The notes below the pieces were generated by a model, which searched no databases, was not told the origin of the DNA, and saw only the letters and a program-made list of their open reading frames with translations. A stretch of DNA of 45,524 nt from Betaproteobacteria bacterium (GTDB lineage: Bacteria > Pseudomonadota > Gammaproteobacteria > Burkholderiales > SG8-39): positions 1 to 45,524 of the forward strand of contig VBBY01000029.1 in the NCBI GenBank assembly GCA_005881595.1, read 5' to 3'. A program made the position numbers and the translations under genes. Below, one piece after another: positions 20,470-31,107 of this stretch. Numbering within the stretch: position 1 is the first letter of the stretch; every line of letters starts with the position of its first letter.

Positions 20470-21758
<1,289 letters not shown>

Positions 21759-21762
<4 letters not shown>

Positions 21763-24700
21763 GCCGGCAGATATTTCATGACCTGCTCGAGCAGCTCGGA
21801 TTCCTGGTACGGCTTGCCGAGAAAGGCGTTGACGCCCAGCCGCGTCGCCTGGTCGCGGTGCTTCTCGGCGGTGCGCGACGAGATGACGATGATCGGAATG
21901 CCGCGGGTGCGCGAGTCGCCGCGCACGGTTCGCGTCAGCTCGAAGCCGTCCATGCGCGGCATCTCGATGTCGACCAGCATGACGGCAGGCAGCGTGTCCT
22001 TGATCAGCTCGAGCGCGTCGACGCCGTCCTTGGCGGTGAGCACCCGGTAGCCCTCGCGCTCGAGCAGGCGGCTGGTGATCTTGCGCACCGTGAGCGAGTC
22101 GTCGACCACCATGATGAGCGGGGTAGCCGCGGCCGCAGGCGCCGCCATTGCCGCCGGCGCAATCGCAGTCTTCGCCAGAGCGCTTCTCGCGTGCTGCGCA
22201 AGCTGCACCGGATTGATGATGAGCACGATCCGGCCGTCCCCCAGCACTGTCGCGCCGCCGACGCCCGGCACGCGCGCCAGCTGCGGCCCGATGTTCTTGA
22301 CGACGGTTTCCTGGTTGCCGATCAGCTCGTCCACGTGCAGCGCGATGCGCTGGATGCCGCTGCGCAGGAGCAGGACCGAGTTGTAGGCCTGGATTTCGGT
22401 GGCGCCGCGCCCGCCGAGCAGATGCGGGAGGTAGTACAGCGGGTAGGAGCGGCCCTGCGACTCGATGACCGCCTTCTCGTAGAGGCCCGCCAAGGCGTCC
22501 GCCTTGACGCGCAGCACCTGCTCGACCATGGCGGAGGATACCGCGAGGACGCTGCTTGCGGCGCGCACGATGACGGTCTGCGTCACGGCGAGCGTCAGCG
22601 GCAGGTAGACGGTGAAGGTCGTGCCGCGGCCGCGCGTGCTGGCGATCTCGACGCGCCCGCCGATCGAGGCGATCTCGCTGCGCACCACGTCCATGCCGAC
22701 GCCGCGGCCGGAAAGCTGAGTCAGCTTGCCGGCGGTCGACAGGCCGGACACGAAGATCAGCTGCGCGAGCTCGGCTTCGCTCGCCTGCTGATCGCGGGTC
22801 AGCACGCCCTTCTCGATGGCCTTCTTGCGCAGCTGGTCGAGATCGAGGCCGGCGCCGTCGTCGCTCACGACGAGCGCGATTTCATTGCCTTCCTGGCGCA
22901 GGTTGATGGCGATGCGCCCGGATTCCGGCTTGCCTGCGGCCAGCCGCTCTTGCGGGGATTCCAGGCCGTGGCCCAGGGCGTTGCGCAGCATGTGCTCGAG
23001 CGGCGCGCCGATTCTCTCGAGCACGCTGCGGTCGAGCTCGACCTGGCCGCCTTCGATCTCCAGCTCGGCCTTCTTGCCGACCTCGCGCGCAGTCTGCCGC
23101 ATGATGCGGTACAGGCGCTCGTTAAGGTTCGAGAACGGCACCGCGCGCATGCGCATCAGCTCCTGCTGCACGTCGCGGCTGATGCGCGCCTGCTGCAGCA
23201 GGCCGGCGTCGGTTTCGCCCAGGCTCTTCAGCAGCGACTGCTGGATCGACGCGGCGTCGTTCAGGCTCTCGGCCATCATCCGCGTCAGCTCCTGCAGCCG
23301 CGTATAGCGGTCGAACTCGAGCGGATCGAAGTCGCGGTCGCGCTGCTCGAGCACCGACTGCCGCGACTGTATCTGGCTGTCGGCCTGGACCTCGACCTCG
23401 CGCAGCTGATTGCGCAGGCGCGCGACGCTGTCGTTCAGATCGCCCAGCGACTGCTTCACCTGCCGCAGCTCCGCCTCGATGCGCGAGCGCGCGATGGCGA
23501 TCTCCCCCGCCTCGGAGATCAGGTGATCGAGGATATCGGCGTTGACCCGCAGCAGCGCCGCCGGGCTGGGCAGCGGCGGCTCGGCCCGGGGCGCAGGCGC
23601 GGGCGGAGCCGCCGCCGGCGCCACCAGGCGGCCGCCCATGTGCTCCAGGTCGAGGCTCAGGCGGTCCATCTTCGACTCGAGCTGATCGAACAGCTGCGCC
23701 GAAAACTCGCCGCTCTCGATGGCCGCCTCGATCTGGCTTTCGATGATGTGCGTCAGCTCGCCGAGCCGGATCGCGCCTGCCATCCGGGCGCTGCCTTTGA
23801 GCGTGTGCAGGCCGCGGCGCAGCGAGTCGGAGATGTTCTGGTCGGAGGGGTTCGCCTTCCAGTCGCGCAGGTCGCTGCCGATGCGCGGCACCAGGGCCTC
23901 CGCTTCCTCGAGGAAGATCGGCAGCAGCTGCTGGTCGATGTCGTCCTTCATCACGCGCAGCTCCCTGCCGCTCTTCGCGGCAGGGGCAGGCGGCGGTGGC
24001 GGCGTCTGCAGGCGCGCGGTCAGTTCGTGCAGGGCCCGCGCGGCTTCGATCGCCGGCGCCGGCGCCTGACGCTGCGCAAGGGCGGCGACCATTTCACGCA
24101 GCTTGGCGACCGCCTCCCTCACTGGTTCCACGTCGCGCGGGGCCCTGACATGGCTGGCGACGGGCGTCCAGTGCTCGAGCGCCGCGGCGAGATCAGCTAC
24201 CGCGCCAAAGCCCGCGGTGCGAGAGCTGCTCGCAAGCGTGTGTGCCGCACGCGCGAACTCATCGGAAGCCTCGGACTGGGTTTCCAGCGTCTGGACGTGC
24301 TGCAGCGCTTCCTTGGCATAGATGTCGAAGAAGCTGCGTGCGAGGCGCGTGGTGCCGACCGTGATCTCCTCGGGCTCCGGCTCCACGGCCCTCAGCTTCT
24401 GAGCCCGTTCCACGATCGCCCTGCCGTCGAGAGCGAAGCTCTCCCGGCCGCGCAGCCTGCCTATCCATTCCCTGAAGGCCGCGCTCGCCAGGGCGATCAG
24501 CTCGAGCAGCTCGGGGGAGGCCGGCTGCTGCCGCTCGAGCCAGCGGTTCATGACCTGCTCGATTTCCCAGGCGACCTCGCCGAGATCGGTCAGGCCGACC
24601 ATGCGGCCGCTTCCCTTCAGGGTATGAAAGCCGCGGCGGATCGTCGTCAGCACGTCGCGGTCGCCGGGCCGCTCGCGCGAGCGCGGCAGCGACGCATCGA

Positions 24701-26501
24701 TATTCCCGAGCACTTCGCCCGCTTCCTCGAGGAAGATGTCGAGCAAGCCTTCGGATTCCGCCGCCGGCTGCGTCTCGCGGGGTTTTTCCTGCGGCTTCTC
24801 GGGCGCCGCCGCGCTCGCGGCGCGTTTCTCGTAGCGGCTGAAAAAAAGCTCGATCGCCTTGTCGGACGGATCGCGCCCGTTGACGCACGGCGCCAGGAAC
24901 AGGCCGAGGCTGCTGAGGCCTTCGGCGATCCAGTCCATGTCCTCCAGCGAGGCGTCACGCTCGCGGGCGGCGCAGGCCTTGATCAGCGCTTCGCAGAGCG
25001 CCGTGACCTGGGTGGCGCGCTCGAATCCCAGCACGGCGAGCGCGCCATGGATCTGCCGCAGGTGAGTGTCGAGGCCGCGGAGCGCCTCGCGCGCCGCCAG
25101 CTCGCGCGAGTAGGCATCGAGCACCTGCTCCACGTGCTGGAGATTGGCGAGGATCTCCTTCGCCACCTGCGCGCGCAGCTGCAGCGCGCCGATCTGCTGG
25201 CTGAGATCGGCGCGCAGCCCGGCGGGCGGCTCGCCGGTCGATTTGCCTTGCGCGGCATCGAGCAGCCAGCCGCCCATGATGCCGATCTGCTGCTGCAGGT
25301 CGGCCGGCGGGCGGGCGAAATTCTCGAGCACGCTCTCCGCCAGCAGGAAGGCCGAGGCCATCTCGATGACCATGAACTGGCTCTTCGGCGGATACGGGTC
25401 GGGGAGCCGCGTCGCGACGAGGGTGATGGCGTCCAGCAGCTTGATCAGGTGCTTGTTGCCGAGCTCGGCGGCCTTCGCCTTGAACCAGCTCACCAGCTCG
25501 CGGAACCGCAGCACGCTCTTCGGCTCGCCGGTCACGTACTGCTGCCACACGGCCTTCAGCGCGTCCAGCCGCGAGCGCGCGTCGCCCAGGACCGGCTGCA
25601 GCCGGTCCATGTCGAGCTCCACCTTCTGGCCGGCGGCCTCGGGCGACGGGATCAGGCTGTCGAGGCGGTAGAGCAGCTTGATATCCTTGAGGCGTTGCGT
25701 AGACGGCTTGGCGCGCGCGACCAGATACAGCATTTCGCGCAGCAGCGGATCGTTGACCGCCTGCGAGCCGGCAGCGAGGTCCCGCATGTGGAAATCGATC
25801 TTGTTGCAGAGCACCTTGGCGCTCGCCTGCCAGTTGGGCTCCGGCGCATCGAGCAGGCCGTCGACGAGCCCGATCGCGACCCAGGCGAGCGCGCGCGGCT
25901 CGGGGAGCTGCGCCGAGACCTGGTAGAGCGCGTCGAGCGCCTGGCGCATGTCCTCCGGGCCGGCGGCCGAGCCGCGCAGCCAGGCCAGCAGCCCGCGCTG
26001 GAAACGCGCGCGCTGCGCCTGCAGATGCGGCGCCAGCTCGTTCTTTGCCAGCGTCCAGGGGCTGGGATGCGAAGGCGCCGGCGGGGTCAGATCGGGGAAG
26101 AACAGCTCCTTTTCGGAGCTGTCGGCCTTGCCCTGCAGCTCGGCGAGCTCCCGATAGACGGGAAACAGCCGCAGCGGCACGTTCGCCTGGCCGCGCGCCA
26201 CGTCGTCGACGAACTGCTTCAGGGCGAGCACCGCGCGGTCGATGATGCCGATCGACGCCGTGCTGGGCCGCGAGCCGTTCGCTCCCGAGAAGCTGCCTTC
26301 GATCGCTTCGCAGAAGCGCGTCGCGCCGCTCAGCCCCACCATGCGCAGCGCCCCGCTCACCTGGTGCAGGTGCTCGGGGCATATGCTGAGCGCAGCGGGA
26401 TCGTGCGGGGACGCGGAAAACTGCGCGATGCTGTCGCGCACGTTCTCCAACGCCTGATCCACTTCGGCGGTGATCCAGGACAGGATGGTGGCGTCGGCCA
26501 T
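21759..26501 (-). CDS. chpA: ChpA-type chemotaxis hybrid histidine kinase with several Hpt domains, CheW-like and receiver domains
   Basis: A 1580-aa CheA-like kinase of the Pil-Chp pathway. Five Hpt-like helical bundles can be traced: about residue 46 (LHQVSGALRMVGL), 480 (LRQIHGALAVLGF, His position replaced), 624 (HTLKGSGRMVGL), 757 (HTLASSSRTAGF, lysine and glycine lost) and 898 (HTLKGSARMAGA). A CheA dimer/ATPase core follows, with an N-box near 1172 (HMLRNALGHGLESPQER), DDGAGLDLDQLRKKA and LSGRGVGMDVVRSEI. A CheW-like domain comes next. The C-terminal receiver (about 1455-1580) has VVDDSLTVRK and phospho-acceptor LVDIEMPRMDGFEL. It should phosphorylate PilG and PilH to control type IV pili. 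Confidence 0.93.
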
Positions 26502-26508
26502 GGTCCAG

Positions 26509-28644
26509 TCAGGCGAGCTTGAAGCCCGCCACCGAGTTCTTCAGGCCGTCGGCCAGCGCCGTCAGCCGCGCCGCCGAAGCGGCGGTCTTCTTGGTGCCTT
26601 CCGTGGTCAGCTGCGTGATGCCGAGGATGATCTTCATCTTGCCAGCCACCTGCGCGGCGGACACCGCCTGCTGCTGCGTGGCGCCGGAGATCGAGCCGAT
26701 CAGCTCGGCGAGGCGGCTCGAGACCTGCTCGATCTCGCGCAGCGCCTGGTCCGCCTCGTCGGCGGTCTTCGTCCCCTCGACCACGCCGCGCGTGCTGCGC
26801 TCCATCGCCTCCACCGCGTCCTGCGTGTCGCGCTGAATGCTCTTCACGATCGCGCCGATGTGCTTGGTCGCCTCGCCTGAGCGCTCCGCCAGCCGCTGCA
26901 CTTCCTCGGCGACCACCGTGAAGCCGCGTCCGGCCTCGCCGGCCGAGGCTGCCTGGATGGCGGCGTTCAGCGCCAGCACGTTGGTCTGCTCCGTGATGTC
27001 CGAGATCAGCTGCACGATCTCGCCGATCTCCTGCGAGCTTTCGCCCAGCCGCTTGATGCGCTTGGAGGTCTCCTGGATCTGCACGCGGATGTCGTTCATG
27101 CCGCGGATCGCGTTCTGCACCGCCTGCGCGCCCTTGCCGGCGGCATGCAGCGACGTTTCCGCCACCTTGGCGGAGTCGTTGGCGCTCTTCGAGACTTCGT
27201 TCATCGATTGCGCCATCTGCGCCACCGCCTGGCCGGTGCCCTGGATCTCGGTCGCCTGCTTCTGCGCCGCCTGCAGCAGCTGGCCGGTCACCGTCTGCGC
27301 TTCCTGCGTCGCGGCGGTCACCTGCTGGGCCGCGCCGGTGATGCCGGTCACCAGGCGACGCAGCTCGTCGATGCTGTAGTTGATCGAGTCGGCGATCGCG
27401 CCGGTGATGTCCTCGGTCACCTTCGCGCGCGCCGTAAGGTCGCCGTTCGCCAGGTTGCCGATCTCATCGAGCAGCCGCAGGATCGCGTCCTGGTTGCTGC
27501 GGTTCATCCGCTCGCTTTCCTCGGCGCGGCGCCGGCTGTCGTCGACGTACGCCTTGCCGATCAGCAGCAGCACCAGGACGGCCAGCACCGACACCACGCC
27601 CAGGGCGACGTAGTTGATGCGCCGCGCGTTCAGCTCGTCCTCGTAGCCGCCGCTCAGGCGCTCGGCGGCGCCGAGCAGGGTCTCGCTGTCGTTGAACATG
27701 TCGCGGCTGGCGCGCTTGGCGTTTACCAGGCGCTGCATGTTGCCGAGGATCTCGCTCACCGCGCGCTGATAGTCCTTGAACGCCGCTTCCAGCTCCCCGA
27801 GCTTGCCCCGCATCTCCGCGTCGGCGACCCGGCCGATGCGCAAGGCCTCGCTGCCCTGCAGCAGCCCCTGCAGGGTGTCGCGGTAGGTGTTCGAGTCCTT
27901 GCCGAGGAGGAACGAGACTTCCGGGTCGATGATCTCCTCCGCGAGCATGGCATTGGCGTTCTTCGCCATGCGCTGCGTCAGCATCATGAGCTGAGCGGTG
28001 ATCGCGTTCTGCCGGGCCGACCCGCCGGACTGAACGCTGATGGCGGCGATCTCGTCGGTGAGCTCCTGCAGCACCGGGTTGCCGGCATTGATCGATCGCA
28101 CCGCCTGGCCCAGCGACACCAGGTTGCGTTCCTCGGCGATCACCAGCGACGCGTTGCGCTCGGTCTTCTTCCATTCCTGGTCCAGGGCACTGAGCATCGG
28201 CCGCACGCGCTCGGAGGTCGGCGGCAGATCGACGCCGCTCGCCACACCGCCCGAGCGCAGCAGCTTCACTTCCGACGCGAACTCGTCGCGGCTGTCGCGC
28301 AGCTGCTTGAATGCCGCGGCGTTGCCCTGCGAGGCCTGCTGAGCCGCCTTGGCGAGGCGCTGCGACAGCATGCGGATCTTGCCGACCACGGCGATGTACA
28401 GCGAATTGAAGGTCGCCTGTCGCGCATCCACTACCACGATCGCGGCGTCGGCGAGCAGGAGAAGCACCAGCAGCGCGGTCAGCAGCTGGAGCTGCCGGCC
28501 GCCTGTCAGCCGGCGAATGAGCCGCAGCGGCGCCGCCAGCATGCCGCCAGAGGCGGCCCGCGGCGGGCGCCGCAGCGGCGCGCCGTGCTGCGCGGCCTCG
28601 CCGCGGCTGAGAAACGGCAGTTTGAGGGCTAATTTGAATGCCAT
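26509..28644 (-). CDS. pilJ: Type IV pilus chemoreceptor PilJ (methyl-accepting chemotaxis protein)
   Basis: A 711-aa transmembrane receptor. TM1 is at about 53-73 (LLTALLVLLLLADAAIVVVD) after a 50-residue cytoplasmic, Arg-rich leader. The periplasmic part has two related PilJ-type helical modules (FNSLYIAVVGKIRMLSQRLA and AQLMMLTQRMAKNANAMLAE). TM2 is at about 346-366, then a HAMP-like segment (ILRLLDEIGNLANGDLTARA). The signalling hairpin tip is ISDITEQTNVLALNAAIQAA followed by AGEAGRGFTVVAEEVQRLAE. It should gate ChpA through PilI. It lies 18 bases after a binding-protein gene and 7 bases before chpA. Confidence 0.93.
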   Translation of the reverse strand: MAFKLALKLPFLSRGEAAQHGAPLRRPPRAASGGMLAAPLRLIRRLTGGRQLQLLTALLVLLLLADAAIVVVDARQATFNSLYIAVVGKIRMLSQRLAKAAQQASQGNAAAFKQLRDSRDEFASEVKLLRSGGVASGVDLPPTSERVRPMLSALDQEWKKTERNASLVIAEERNLVSLGQAVRSINAGNPVLQELTDEIAAISVQSGGSARQNAITAQLMMLTQRMAKNANAMLAEEIIDPEVSFLLGKDSNTYRDTLQGLLQGSEALRIGRVADAEMRGKLGELEAAFKDYQRAVSEILGNMQRLVNAKRASRDMFNDSETLLGAAERLSGGYEDELNARRINYVALGVVSVLAVLVLLLIGKAYVDDSRRRAEESERMNRSNQDAILRLLDEIGNLANGDLTARAKVTEDITGAIADSINYSIDELRRLVTGITGAAQQVTAATQEAQTVTGQLLQAAQKQATEIQGTGQAVAQMAQSMNEVSKSANDSAKVAETSLHAAGKGAQAVQNAIRGMNDIRVQIQETSKRIKRLGESSQEIGEIVQLISDITEQTNVLALNAAIQAASAGEAGRGFTVVAEEVQRLAERSGEATKHIGAIVKSIQRDTQDAVEAMERSTRGVVEGTKTADEADQALREIEQVSSRLAELIGSISGATQQQAVSAAQVAGKMKIILGITQLTTEGTKKTAASAARLTALADGLKNSVAGFKLA

Positions 28645-28662: not shown

Positions 28663-29796
28663 CTAGCGCAGGAACTTGCCCTCGCGGGCGATGATGGTCA
28701 GGTCGACGAACTTCGACCCGGCGTGGTTCTGCGGCGAATAACTCACGTAGAAACCGCCGACGTCGACGTCCTGCATCCTCTCGAGCGCATCGATGAACGC
28801 TTCGCGGGTCAGATCCCTGCCGGTGCGCTTGAGCCCTTCGACGAAGACCTTGGCCACGACGAAGCCCTCGATCGCGCTGAAATTGAAATCGGGGTGGCCC
28901 GCCTTGGCCGCGAGCCGCTGGTACTCCTTGACGACCGGCACCGCCGCCCCCCACGGGAACGGCATCACCTGGGAGATCGCCACGCCCAGGCCGTCGCTGC
29001 CGAGCGCGTCGGCCAGCGCCTTGCTGCCGACGAACGAGACGTTGTAGAACGTCGCCGCGCTGCCGCTCCTTTTCATCTGCCGGATGAATTCCGCGCACGA
29101 GGTGTACTGGCTGATCATCACCACGGCGTCGGGCTTCGCGGCGTTGATGGCCTTTACCGCATTCTCCACCTTGATCGTGTTGCGCTCGACGGTGCCGAGG
29201 GCGGAGACCTTCAGGCCGCGCTTCGCCATCGCGATCTCGGTGCCCTTGAGACCGGCCTGGCCGTAGGCGTCATCCTGGTAGAACACGGCGATGCTCTTGC
29301 CGCCGATCGACAGCACCTGCTCGACGATCTTGTCGGTCTCGTCGTAGTAGCTGGCGCGCACGTGGAAGATGTAGCGGTTGAAGGGGGCGCGCAGCGCCTC
29401 GGCGCCGGTGAACGGGCCGAAGAACGGGACTTTCGCTTCGGTGAAGACCGGGATCGCGGGCACGCTGGTCGGCGTGCCGACGTAACCGATCAAGGCGAAC
29501 ACCTTGTGCTCGTCGATCAGCTTCTTCGTGTTCGGCACGGTGCGCGCAGGCTCGTAGCCGTCGTCGAGCGTGATCAGCTCGATTTTCCGGCCGTGCACGC
29601 CGCCCTGCGCGTTGACGTAGTCCAGGTACGCGCTCACGCCGTTGCGCATCTGGATGCCGAGCTGCGACGCCGGCCCGGTCAGCGCCACCGACTGGCCGAG
29701 CACGATCCGGTCCTTCGTGACGCCGTTTTCAGCCGCCGCGGGCTGCGCCAGCAGCACCGCCAGAGCGATCAGGAGGCGAACGCAGTTCTTCTCCAT
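28663..29796 (-). CDS. LivK-like periplasmic ligand-binding protein (type I fold) inside the Pil-Chp operon
   Basis: A 377-aa exported protein. A signal peptide (MEKNCVRLLIALAVLLAQPAAA) is followed by the type I periplasmic-binding fold of branched-chain amino acid ABC systems: DRIVLGQSVALTGPASQLGI, GGVHGRKIELITLDDGYEPA, FALIGYVGTPTSVPAIPVF and VFYQDDAYGQAGLKGTEIAM. No permease or ATPase gene of a Liv-type transporter is nearby. The gene lies between pilI (9 bases) and pilJ (18 bases) on the same strand, so it is co-transcribed with the chemosensory genes. A role as a sensory ligand-binding partner for PilJ is inferred; an orphan importer subunit is the alternative. Confidence 0.9.
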   Translation of the reverse strand: MEKNCVRLLIALAVLLAQPAAAENGVTKDRIVLGQSVALTGPASQLGIQMRNGVSAYLDYVNAQGGVHGRKIELITLDDGYEPARTVPNTKKLIDEHKVFALIGYVGTPTSVPAIPVFTEAKVPFFGPFTGAEALRAPFNRYIFHVRASYYDETDKIVEQVLSIGGKSIAVFYQDDAYGQAGLKGTEIAMAKRGLKVSALGTVERNTIKVENAVKAINAAKPDAVVMISQYTSCAEFIRQMKRSGSAATFYNVSFVGSKALADALGSDGLGVAISQVMPFPWGAAVPVVKEYQRLAAKAGHPDFNFSAIEGFVVAKVFVEGLKRTGRDLTREAFIDALERMQDVDVGGFYVSYSPQNHAGSKFVDLTIIAREGKFLR

Positions 29797-29805
29797 CCAG
29801 GCCCC

Positions 29806-30315
29806 TCAGATTCCCACGTCGAGAAATTCCGGCTGCTGAACCAGGGCCGGCAGGTCCAGCTCTTTCCACCGCCTGCCTTCCGCATCGCTGTATTCGGCCC
29901 TGATCCAGGGCGCCTGCGCGGCGTCGCGAGCGCGCGCCTGCAGCTGCGAGGCGTTACGCAGCCCGAGCGAGCCGTCCACCAGCAGCGCGCTGCCGACGCG
30001 GAAGCGCTCGCCGACGAGCAGCAGGCGGGCCCGCTCGCGCACGGCGACCCCCGGCCCGCCGAGGAAGGCGGAGAAATCGACCACGCTGTAGAGATTGCCG
30101 CGGATATTGGTGACGCCCTTGAACCACGCGCGAGTCAGGGGCACTGCGCTGATCGGCGTGACGGGAATGACCTCGCCGGCATCCGCCAGGTCGACAAGCC
30201 AGCCTTCCTCGCCTACCTGCAGGGCCAGCTTCGAAGCGGTGCCGCCGAGCTCGGCGCTTTGCAGCCGGGCCGACAGCTCGCGCTGGTAATCCCGCAGGGA
30301 AGCTTTGGCCGCCAT
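29806..30315 (-). CDS. pilI: PilI-type CheW coupling protein
   Basis: A 169-aa CheW-domain protein that should connect the PilJ receptor to ChpA. It opens MAAKASLRDYQRELSARLQS, similar to PilI proteins, and carries the CheW segments LALQVGEEGWLVDLADAGEV, RAWFKGVTNIRGNLYSVVDF and ARLLLVGERFRVGSALLVDG. The ATG at 30315 overlaps the pilH stop by 4 bases (ATGA), confirming this start against a longer upstream open frame. Its order after pilG and pilH matches the Pil-Chp operon of pseudomonads, except that the next gene is a binding protein rather than pilJ. Confidence 0.9.
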   Translation of the reverse strand: MAAKASLRDYQRELSARLQSAELGGTASKLALQVGEEGWLVDLADAGEVIPVTPISAVPLTRAWFKGVTNIRGNLYSVVDFSAFLGGPGVAVRERARLLLVGERFRVGSALLVDGSLGLRNASQLQARARDAAQAPWIRAEYSDAEGRRWKELDLPALVQQPEFLDVGI

Positions 30316-30680
30316 CAGCCGAGAGCGGCGATCTTGGCCAGCAGGTCGGCCTGGTTGATCGGCTTCACGATGTAATCGCGTGCGCCCTGGCGCATGCCCC
30401 ACACCTTGTCGGTCTCCTGCGCCTTGCTGGTGCAGATGATGACCGGGATGTGCTTGGTGCTGTCGTCCCGGGCCAGCATGCGGGTCGCCTGGAAGCCGTT
30501 CTGGCCTGGCATGACCACGTCCATCAGCACCAGGTCGGGGCGATGCTGCTTGACCTTGGCGAGCGCGTCTTCGGCGCTGTCGGCAGTCGAGACCTTGTAC
30601 CCGTTCTTCACCAGCAGCTCGCTGAGAAACTGGCGATCGGTGGCGGAGTCATCGACGATGAGGATGTTCTTGATTGGCAT
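30315..30680 (-). CDS. pilH: Response regulator PilH (single receiver domain)
   Basis: A 121-aa CheY-like protein with no output domain. Acidic pocket residues are in NILIVDDSATDRQFLSELL, the phospho-acceptor Asp is in DLVLMDVVMPGQNGFQATRM (about D54), the switch Thr/Ser is in IPVIICTSKAQETD, and Lys is in DYIVKPINQADLL. In the Pseudomonas pathway PilH opposes or drains phosphate from PilG. It starts 22 bases after the pilG stop and overlaps pilI by 4 bases. Confidence 0.92.
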   Translation of the reverse strand: MPIKNILIVDDSATDRQFLSELLVKNGYKVSTADSAEDALAKVKQHRPDLVLMDVVMPGQNGFQATRMLARDDSTKHIPVIICTSKAQETDKVWGMRQGARDYIVKPINQADLLAKIAALG

Positions 30681-30702: not shown

Positions 30703-31107
30703 TCAGGTGGGAAGCGAAGCCGGCTTGACGTACTCGTTGACCGCCTCGATCAGCCCTTCCTTAGTAAAAGGCTTGGTCAGGTAGCGATCGGATCCGGCGA
30801 GCCTGCCGCGCGCGCGATCGAACACGCCGTCCTTGCTCGACAGCATGATCACGGGCGTGGATTTGAGCTGCGGGTTCTGCTTGATCAGCGCGCAGGTCTG
30901 GTACCCGTCGAGCCGCGGCATCATGATGTCGACGAAGATCACCTGCGGCTGGTGATCGGAGATCTTGGAAAGCGCATCGAAGCCGTCTTCGGCCAGGATG
31001 ACTTCATAGCCGGCCTGGCGCAGAAATAGCTCCGCGCTGCGTCGAATAGTGTTGCTGTCATCGATCACGAGCACCTTGATGGCGCCCGTCGGCGATGCTT
31101 GACTCAC
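30703..31107 (-). CDS. pilG: Response regulator PilG (single receiver domain)
   Basis: A 134-aa CheY-like protein. Motifs are KVLVIDDSNTIRRSAELFLR, phospho-acceptor Asp in VIFVDIMMPRLDGYQTCALI, TPVIMLSSKDGVFDRARGRL and YLTKPFTKEGLIEAVNEYV; the wording is very close to PilG of pseudomonads. In those species PilG promotes pilus extension and stimulates adenylate cyclase CyaB. The start codon is GTG at 31107 with a purine-rich GGGGGAG just upstream. It is the first gene of the long chemosensory operon, and the AT-rich region upstream should hold the promoter. Confidence 0.93.
   Translation of the reverse strand: MSQASPTGAIKVLVIDDSNTIRRSAELFLRQAGYEVILAEDGFDALSKISDHQPQVIFVDIMMPRLDGYQTCALIKQNPQLKSTPVIMLSSKDGVFDRARGRLAGSDRYLTKPFTKEGLIEAVNEYVKPASLPT

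Follow-up and report, generated by a model that had tools for sequence, protein, structure and literature searches.

Background

Several sensors are known to work with the help of a solute-binding protein (SBP), the precedents being TorT-TorS, LuxP-LuxQ, maltose-binding protein-Tar, LsrB-Tsr and PstS-CtpL (PMC6321045). In this group CtpL is an HBM-type receptor activated by an SBP, and both CtpL-PstS and Tar-maltose-binding protein are cases in which the SBP brings ligand to the helical periplasmic domain of a methyl-accepting chemotaxis receptor (MCP; PMC6321045). PilJ, of the Pil-Chp system in P. aeruginosa, is itself a chemoreceptor; its domain has been assigned to the HBM type (PMC12632253), and it has been proposed that ligand reaches it indirectly, carried by an SBP (PMC10896506, PMC12632253). 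A sequence-only reading of the DNA studied here had tied pseudomonad Pil-Chp to surface contact and pilin and not to a soluble SBP, which in the light of these papers was too strong. In the searchable literature, outside which most subscription papers lie, no SBP is reported as a PilJ operon gene. SBP-assisted receptors are thus known, and for PilJ an SBP has hitherto only been proposed; here we describe an operon-encoded candidate.

Results and discussion

A binding-protein gene inside a Pil-Chp operon

The window, by which we mean the whole stretch of DNA analysed, comprises 45,524 nt (positions 1-45,524, forward strand) of contig VBBY01000029.1 from a Betaproteobacteria bacterium (GCA_005881595.1). 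On its minus strand lie pilG-pilH-pilI, a gene for a periplasmic binding protein (PBP), pilJ and chpA, in that order, and then a Ser/Thr kinase gene:

30703..31107 (-): pilG, response regulator receiver, 134 aa (Pfam receiver)
30315..30680 (-): pilH, response regulator receiver, 121 aa (Pfam receiver)
29806..30315 (-): pilI, CheW-like adaptor, 169 aa (Pfam CheW); its start overlaps the pilH stop
28663..29796 (-): PBP, LivK-fold periplasmic binding protein, 377 aa, ATG start, Sec signal peptide (by inspection)
26509..28644 (-): pilJ, methyl-accepting receptor, 711 aa (two stretches of PF13675, and MCPsignal)
21759..26501 (-): chpA, CheA-type kinase, 1580 aa (four Hpt stretches, HATPase, CheW and receiver, all Pfam)
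20470..21762 (-): Ser/Thr protein kinase, 430 aa, with a cyclic-nucleotide-binding domain at its C-terminus; final gene of the operon

The PBP gene is separated from pilI by 9 nt and from pilJ by 18 nt, so that the uninterrupted one-strand order and the two gaps described from the sequence alone are exactly as stated. Stretches resembling ribosome-binding sites precede the ATG codons of the PBP gene (GAGGGG) and of pilJ (GGAG). Two receivers, a CheW adaptor, a PilJ-domain MCP and a multi-Hpt CheA are brought together in one cluster, which has the same content and order as pilG-pilH-pilI-pilJ-chpA of P. aeruginosa Pil-Chp, apart from two additions: an SBP gene that separates pilI from pilJ and, after chpA, a gene for a Ser/Thr kinase that has a cNMP domain. 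No PBP is known from the P. aeruginosa pil operon. PilT-family pilus motors are represented by three proteins over the cut-off in the host's own genome and are present in all 15 PBP-linked genomes. By inspection, no cheR- or cheB-like gene was seen 3' of chpA within the window.

Family, fold and pocket of the binding protein

The PBP matches PF13458 (Peripla_BP_6) over residues 31-360 at 7e-62, with 210 bits against a gathering cut-off of 31.7. Its N-terminus, MEKNCVRLLIALAVLLAQPAAA-ENG, reads on inspection as a Sec signal peptide that lacks a lipobox, and in the translation the hydrophobic segment ends in AQPAAA-E. An AlphaFold2 model (pLDDT 93.9) has the two lobes of a type I SBP; it is matched best by two solved type I SBPs, 4kv7 (Z 52, rmsd 1.4 over 347 residues) and 3lop (Z 48). 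The signal peptide and type I fold read from the sequence alone agree with these observations.

The label 'LivK-like', also given from the sequence, fares differently in its two parts: the fold and Pfam family are indeed those of the branched-chain amino acid SBPs LivJ and LivK, whereas the pocket is not. The NCBIfam LivK/LivJ model PRK15404 gives the PBP 63.4 bits, far under its cut-off of 477. When the PBP is aligned with E. coli LivJ, S79 of LivJ corresponds to T108 and is kept, E226 corresponds to S254, a Ser shared by every one of the 43 sequences aligned, and Gln or, mostly, Ala stands at the position of Y202. In LivJ, the amine of the ligand is bound by E226. A branched-chain amino acid is consequently a doubtful ligand for the PBP as judged from its sequence, because an invariant Ser stands in place of this Glu. 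Our guess would be a carboxylate that has no alpha-amine, which fits the aromatic- and keto-acid-bound structures among the structural matches. The motif DDGYEP is common to the window PBP and that of one other genome (G070), whereas most aligned clade members have DDRYEA; the ligand may therefore differ between members of the clade.

Loss of the LivJ amine-binding Glu and of the Tyr at LivJ 202 could also be read as loss of small-molecule binding altogether, with the PBP persisting in a structural or inhibitory partnership with PilJ; TorT and LuxP do contact their sensors in both the ligand-bound and the ligand-free state (PMC6321045). We regard such a ligand-independent role as very improbable, since the cleft is conserved and not decayed (T108 in 41 of 43 sequences, S254 in 43 of 43), as would be expected of a site with a different ligand.

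Conservation within the Pil-Chp clade

We surveyed 98 genomes of the host's family, in which the PilJ relatives form two sets. In the first, the PBP gene lies directly upstream of pilJ for all 12 full-length PilJ proteins at 71-100% identity, and the PBP is retained at 68-82% amino acid identity across all 12 related clusters. The PBP gene of G005 is split over two contigs, and the contig of G010 begins inside it; in G009, where pilJ is partial, the PBP is also present. The 13 PBP-linked genomes comprise nine of genus g1, two of g3 (G012, G090), one of g7 (G107) and one of g14 (G070), and the named records of most clade members are betaproteobacterial metagenome bins, together with one single-cell genome. 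Most other g7 and g14 genomes have no PilJ of the PBP-linked type, which suggests that the pil cluster has been transferred, although contamination of the bins may also account for this pattern.

In the second set, the remaining full-length PilJ proteins of the family are at most 60% identical, and pilI and pilJ are adjacent in the 18 of 18 that were examined; fragments in G073, G074 and G088 (82-86% identity) end short of the pilI-pilJ stretch. Together with 27 junctions from the order, these 18 make 45 pilI-pilJ junctions outside the clade, none of which holds a gene between pilI and pilJ. Measured between the stop of pilI and the earliest possible start of pilJ, these junctions span -223 to 305 nt, too little to accommodate a gene of the size of the PBP. 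Most Pil-Chp systems do without a PBP gene.

The genes upstream of pilG vary (dnaKJ-grpE, a TctC-like gene, oxidoreductases or a Liv operon) and the PBP is constant throughout. Relative to the window copy, dN/dS of the PBP is 0.18-0.41, and that of the PilJ periplasmic domain is similar (0.18-0.44); the PBP is under purifying selection. One scan of viral contigs returned no viral relatives of the PBP. An insertion confined to a single strain, the outcome that the sequence-only reading had named as counting against itself, is ruled out by 12 loci between pilI and pilJ, from 12 genomes in four genera, and by a linkage in a second family.

A second linkage and the phylogenies

That second family is f26, represented by two genomes (G122, G168), and among the 300 genomes of the order that we surveyed it is the only other co-location of a close PBP relative with pilJ. 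Both genomes examined have the order PBP-pilG-pilH-pilI-pilJ-chpA; the f26 PBPs show 64-65% identity, and in G168 the gene lies about 130 nt before pilG. The PilJ tree unites the 12 PBP-linked proteins in a single clade (SH-aLRT 100); a branch with support 99 separates them from the f26 pair, which is placed with lineages that have no PBP. The PBP tree likewise groups the pilI-pilJ PBPs in one clade (support 93), with the f26 PBPs separate from it. The simplest reading of these trees would be two separate linkages of a PBP with Pil-Chp; alternatively, there may have been one old linkage followed by many losses.

Orphan PBPs adjoin the pilI-pilJ clade in the tree, and many of them lie between dnaJ and cysS, often as tandem pairs (L040-L043, L047, L048, L052). 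The pil cluster itself adjoins dnaKJ-grpE in G107 and G012, and these two observations together hint at the origin of the pil PBP. At one further locus (L074) and many others in Sphaerotilaceae, orphan relatives occupy, in many genomes, the interval between a divergent gene that on sequence inspection is molybdopterin-oxidoreductase-like and one that is M20-type amidohydrolase-like.

Relatives elsewhere often adjoin sensor genes

Outside the order, we examined 24 loci in Pseudomonadota (L194-L205, L299-L310), which were picked from the top matches and not at random. A signalling gene on the same strand adjoins the PBP relative in 17 of these 24, mostly directly downstream. The neighbours are as follows:

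L194, L198, L202, L299, L302, L304: chemoreceptors (MCPs)
L195, L196, L200, L301: histidine kinases (L196 by sequence inspection)
L199, L300: HAMP-containing sensors
L307, L308: GGDEF proteins
L306 (G869:C32, 2-6058): CheA-receiver-CheW-CheW cluster, with the PBP relative directly after it, where the contig ends
L205: sCache protein
L309: CHASE2-kinase

At two further loci (L201, L303) the sensor gene is on the opposite strand. The sensors of L195 and L299 pass the Pfam cut-off for TorS_sensor_domain; at L299 (G765:C1, 1385-5730) the gene after the PBP relative encodes a chemoreceptor of 891 aa that has HAMP and a TorS-type sensor domain. Across lineages, an SBP gene of this family is linked to a receptor gene, as would be expected of an SBP-assisted chemoreceptor. 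Sensor linkage is common in the family and not universal, because most relatives within the order are orphans beside housekeeping genes.

Is the binding protein a transporter subunit?

An SBP of the Liv-type transport fold might instead provide the solute-binding subunit for an ABC transporter whose genes lie elsewhere, its place in the pil operon being a historical accident. The host's own genome offers candidates, namely 34 BPD_transp_2 permeases in 17 Liv-type pairs, and an SBP can work with a permease in trans, as do LivJ and LivK of E. coli, which share one. Each of the 17 pairs, however, has a PF13458 protein on its own contig, and no permease is therefore obviously short of an SBP. The contigs that carry a PF13458 protein but no permease are that of the window PBP, C44, C247, C27 and C128, and also C150, where the PF13458 protein is a fragment. 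The absence of transporter partners nearby, as read from the sequence, holds for the window, which contains no transporter of Liv type; the PBP has no linked LivHMGF, and the permease pairs of its genome have other SBPs. It differs in this from LivJ and LivK. LivH or LivM adjoins the PBP relative in none of the 24 loci outside the order, where the neighbours are sensors and not permeases.

A Liv operon does lie upstream of pilG in two clade members (G005 and G006; L033, L053), but it carries its own SBP. We considered the PBP as the SBP of this operon and rejected that assignment for the same reason, and because other genomes differ at this position. A chance placement, moreover, is unlikely to have persisted in 12 of 12 clusters and to be matched by a second linkage in another family. 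A transport role as the explanation of the locus is thus unlikely, and the PBP may still be shared in trans by a Liv-type permease.

The PilJ receptor and its proposed pairing with the binding protein

The periplasmic helical ligand-binding domain of PilJ, at about residues 72-345, matches the P. aeruginosa PilJ structures 7zjr and 8wdf (4e-38). The PBP gene and pilJ are in one frame, and a read-through fusion built by reading the PBP stop TAG as a residue was modelled with AlphaFold2 (pLDDT 91.9, pTM 0.57): the parts are well folded and their mutual placement carries no confidence, so that the model speaks on neither side of the docking question. In G017 and G018, for example, an ordinary PilJ occurs with a close orphan PBP elsewhere in the genome, and the pairing may also work in trans.

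Six of nine clade-specific periplasmic sites in PilJ fall within residues 197-213. The f26 PilJ has D197/E198 in common with the clade and, again like the clade, has no acidic residue at 212, where one is found in the 43 PBP-less PilJ sequences aligned. P. aeruginosa PilJ has E aligned to position 198 and Q to position 212. We considered this signature as a case of convergence and dropped it, as P. aeruginosa PilJ has some of the same residues and the pattern was found post hoc.

With docking on PilJ left unconfirmed by the fusion model, and with three genes separating the PBP gene from pilJ in f26, the PBP might act on the pilus system by another route, for example as a periplasmic component of pilus assembly or surface sensing. 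The gene nevertheless adjoins pilJ in the main clade, and the operon encodes no other periplasmic protein. The relatives, furthermore, pair with many kinds of receptor that have a transmembrane sensor in common, which makes the receptor the likely partner. Action other than through PilJ accordingly seems to us distinctly unlikely.

The kinase closing the operon

The last gene of the operon (20470-21762, minus strand) overlaps chpA by 4 nt and encodes a protein matching PF00069 (2e-50) and PF00027 (5e-15). This kinase gene is found 3' of chpA in every PBP-linked cluster of the clade whose contig extends far enough, and was absent after chpA from the stretches examined in five PBP-less clusters. 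As cAMP is among the outputs of Pil-Chp in P. aeruginosa, it is tempting to imagine that the kinase is gated by cAMP. In two genomes of family f48, a relative of the kinase is encoded some 2 kb upstream of pilJ (G144:C10:4172-5410 and G187:C1:287111-288364), which possibly represents a second linkage of the kinase to Pil-Chp.

A co-receptor model

We consider it likely that the PBP is a secreted, dedicated co-receptor of PilJ, similar to TorT, which passes its ligand state to the receptor. TorT-TorS is a close likeness, in that the gene of a type I SBP neighbours that of a sensor whose periplasmic domain is helical, and two relatives of the PBP adjoin proteins over the TorS_sensor_domain cut-off; here, however, the partner would be a chemoreceptor of a pilus system and not a kinase. 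E. coli TorT itself aligns with the PBP in a gapped and unconvincing manner in a multiple alignment, a comparison of sequence only, and the structural matches shown for the PBP include no TorT, which excludes nothing. CtpL-PstS and Tar-maltose-binding protein are alike in the type of receptor domain that is served, but their SBPs are parts of transporters, whereas the PBP is encoded in a chemosensory operon with no transporter nearby.

The sequence-only reading had proposed that this array senses a small molecule through PilJ. Survey results now favour that proposal (a gene fixed in the clade, the f26 linkage and relatives that adjoin sensors), and gene order and family context are observed; the contact with PilJ, the binding of a ligand and the effect on motility we infer. 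Once exported, the PBP would bind a small ligand, conceivably a carboxylate, in its interlobe cleft. The ligand state of the PBP would then alter how it contacts PilJ at the helical periplasmic domain, in a manner resembling that of TorT with TorS and of maltose-binding protein with Tar. The signal would pass from PilJ through PilI to ChpA, which would set the phosphorylation of PilG and PilH and so bias pilus extension and retraction.

Conclusions

More tentatively, and as something a little less probable than not, these loci may represent a distinct variant of Pil-Chp in which PilJ was made an SBP-dependent chemoreceptor at least twice. The PBP would provide the input and, in the main lineage, the kinase, gated by a cyclic nucleotide, an added output, so that surface motility could be steered by a specific solute, and the PBP would belong to a family serving chemoreceptors, kinases and cyclases across Pseudomonadota.

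An SBP gene of its own beside pilJ suggests that a surface-motility system senses chemicals through a dedicated helper protein. As a specific candidate SBP is now at hand for a specific PilJ, the idea is testable with two small soluble proteins. For the wider PBP family, gene order may offer a route to the partner SBPs of many orphan sensors.
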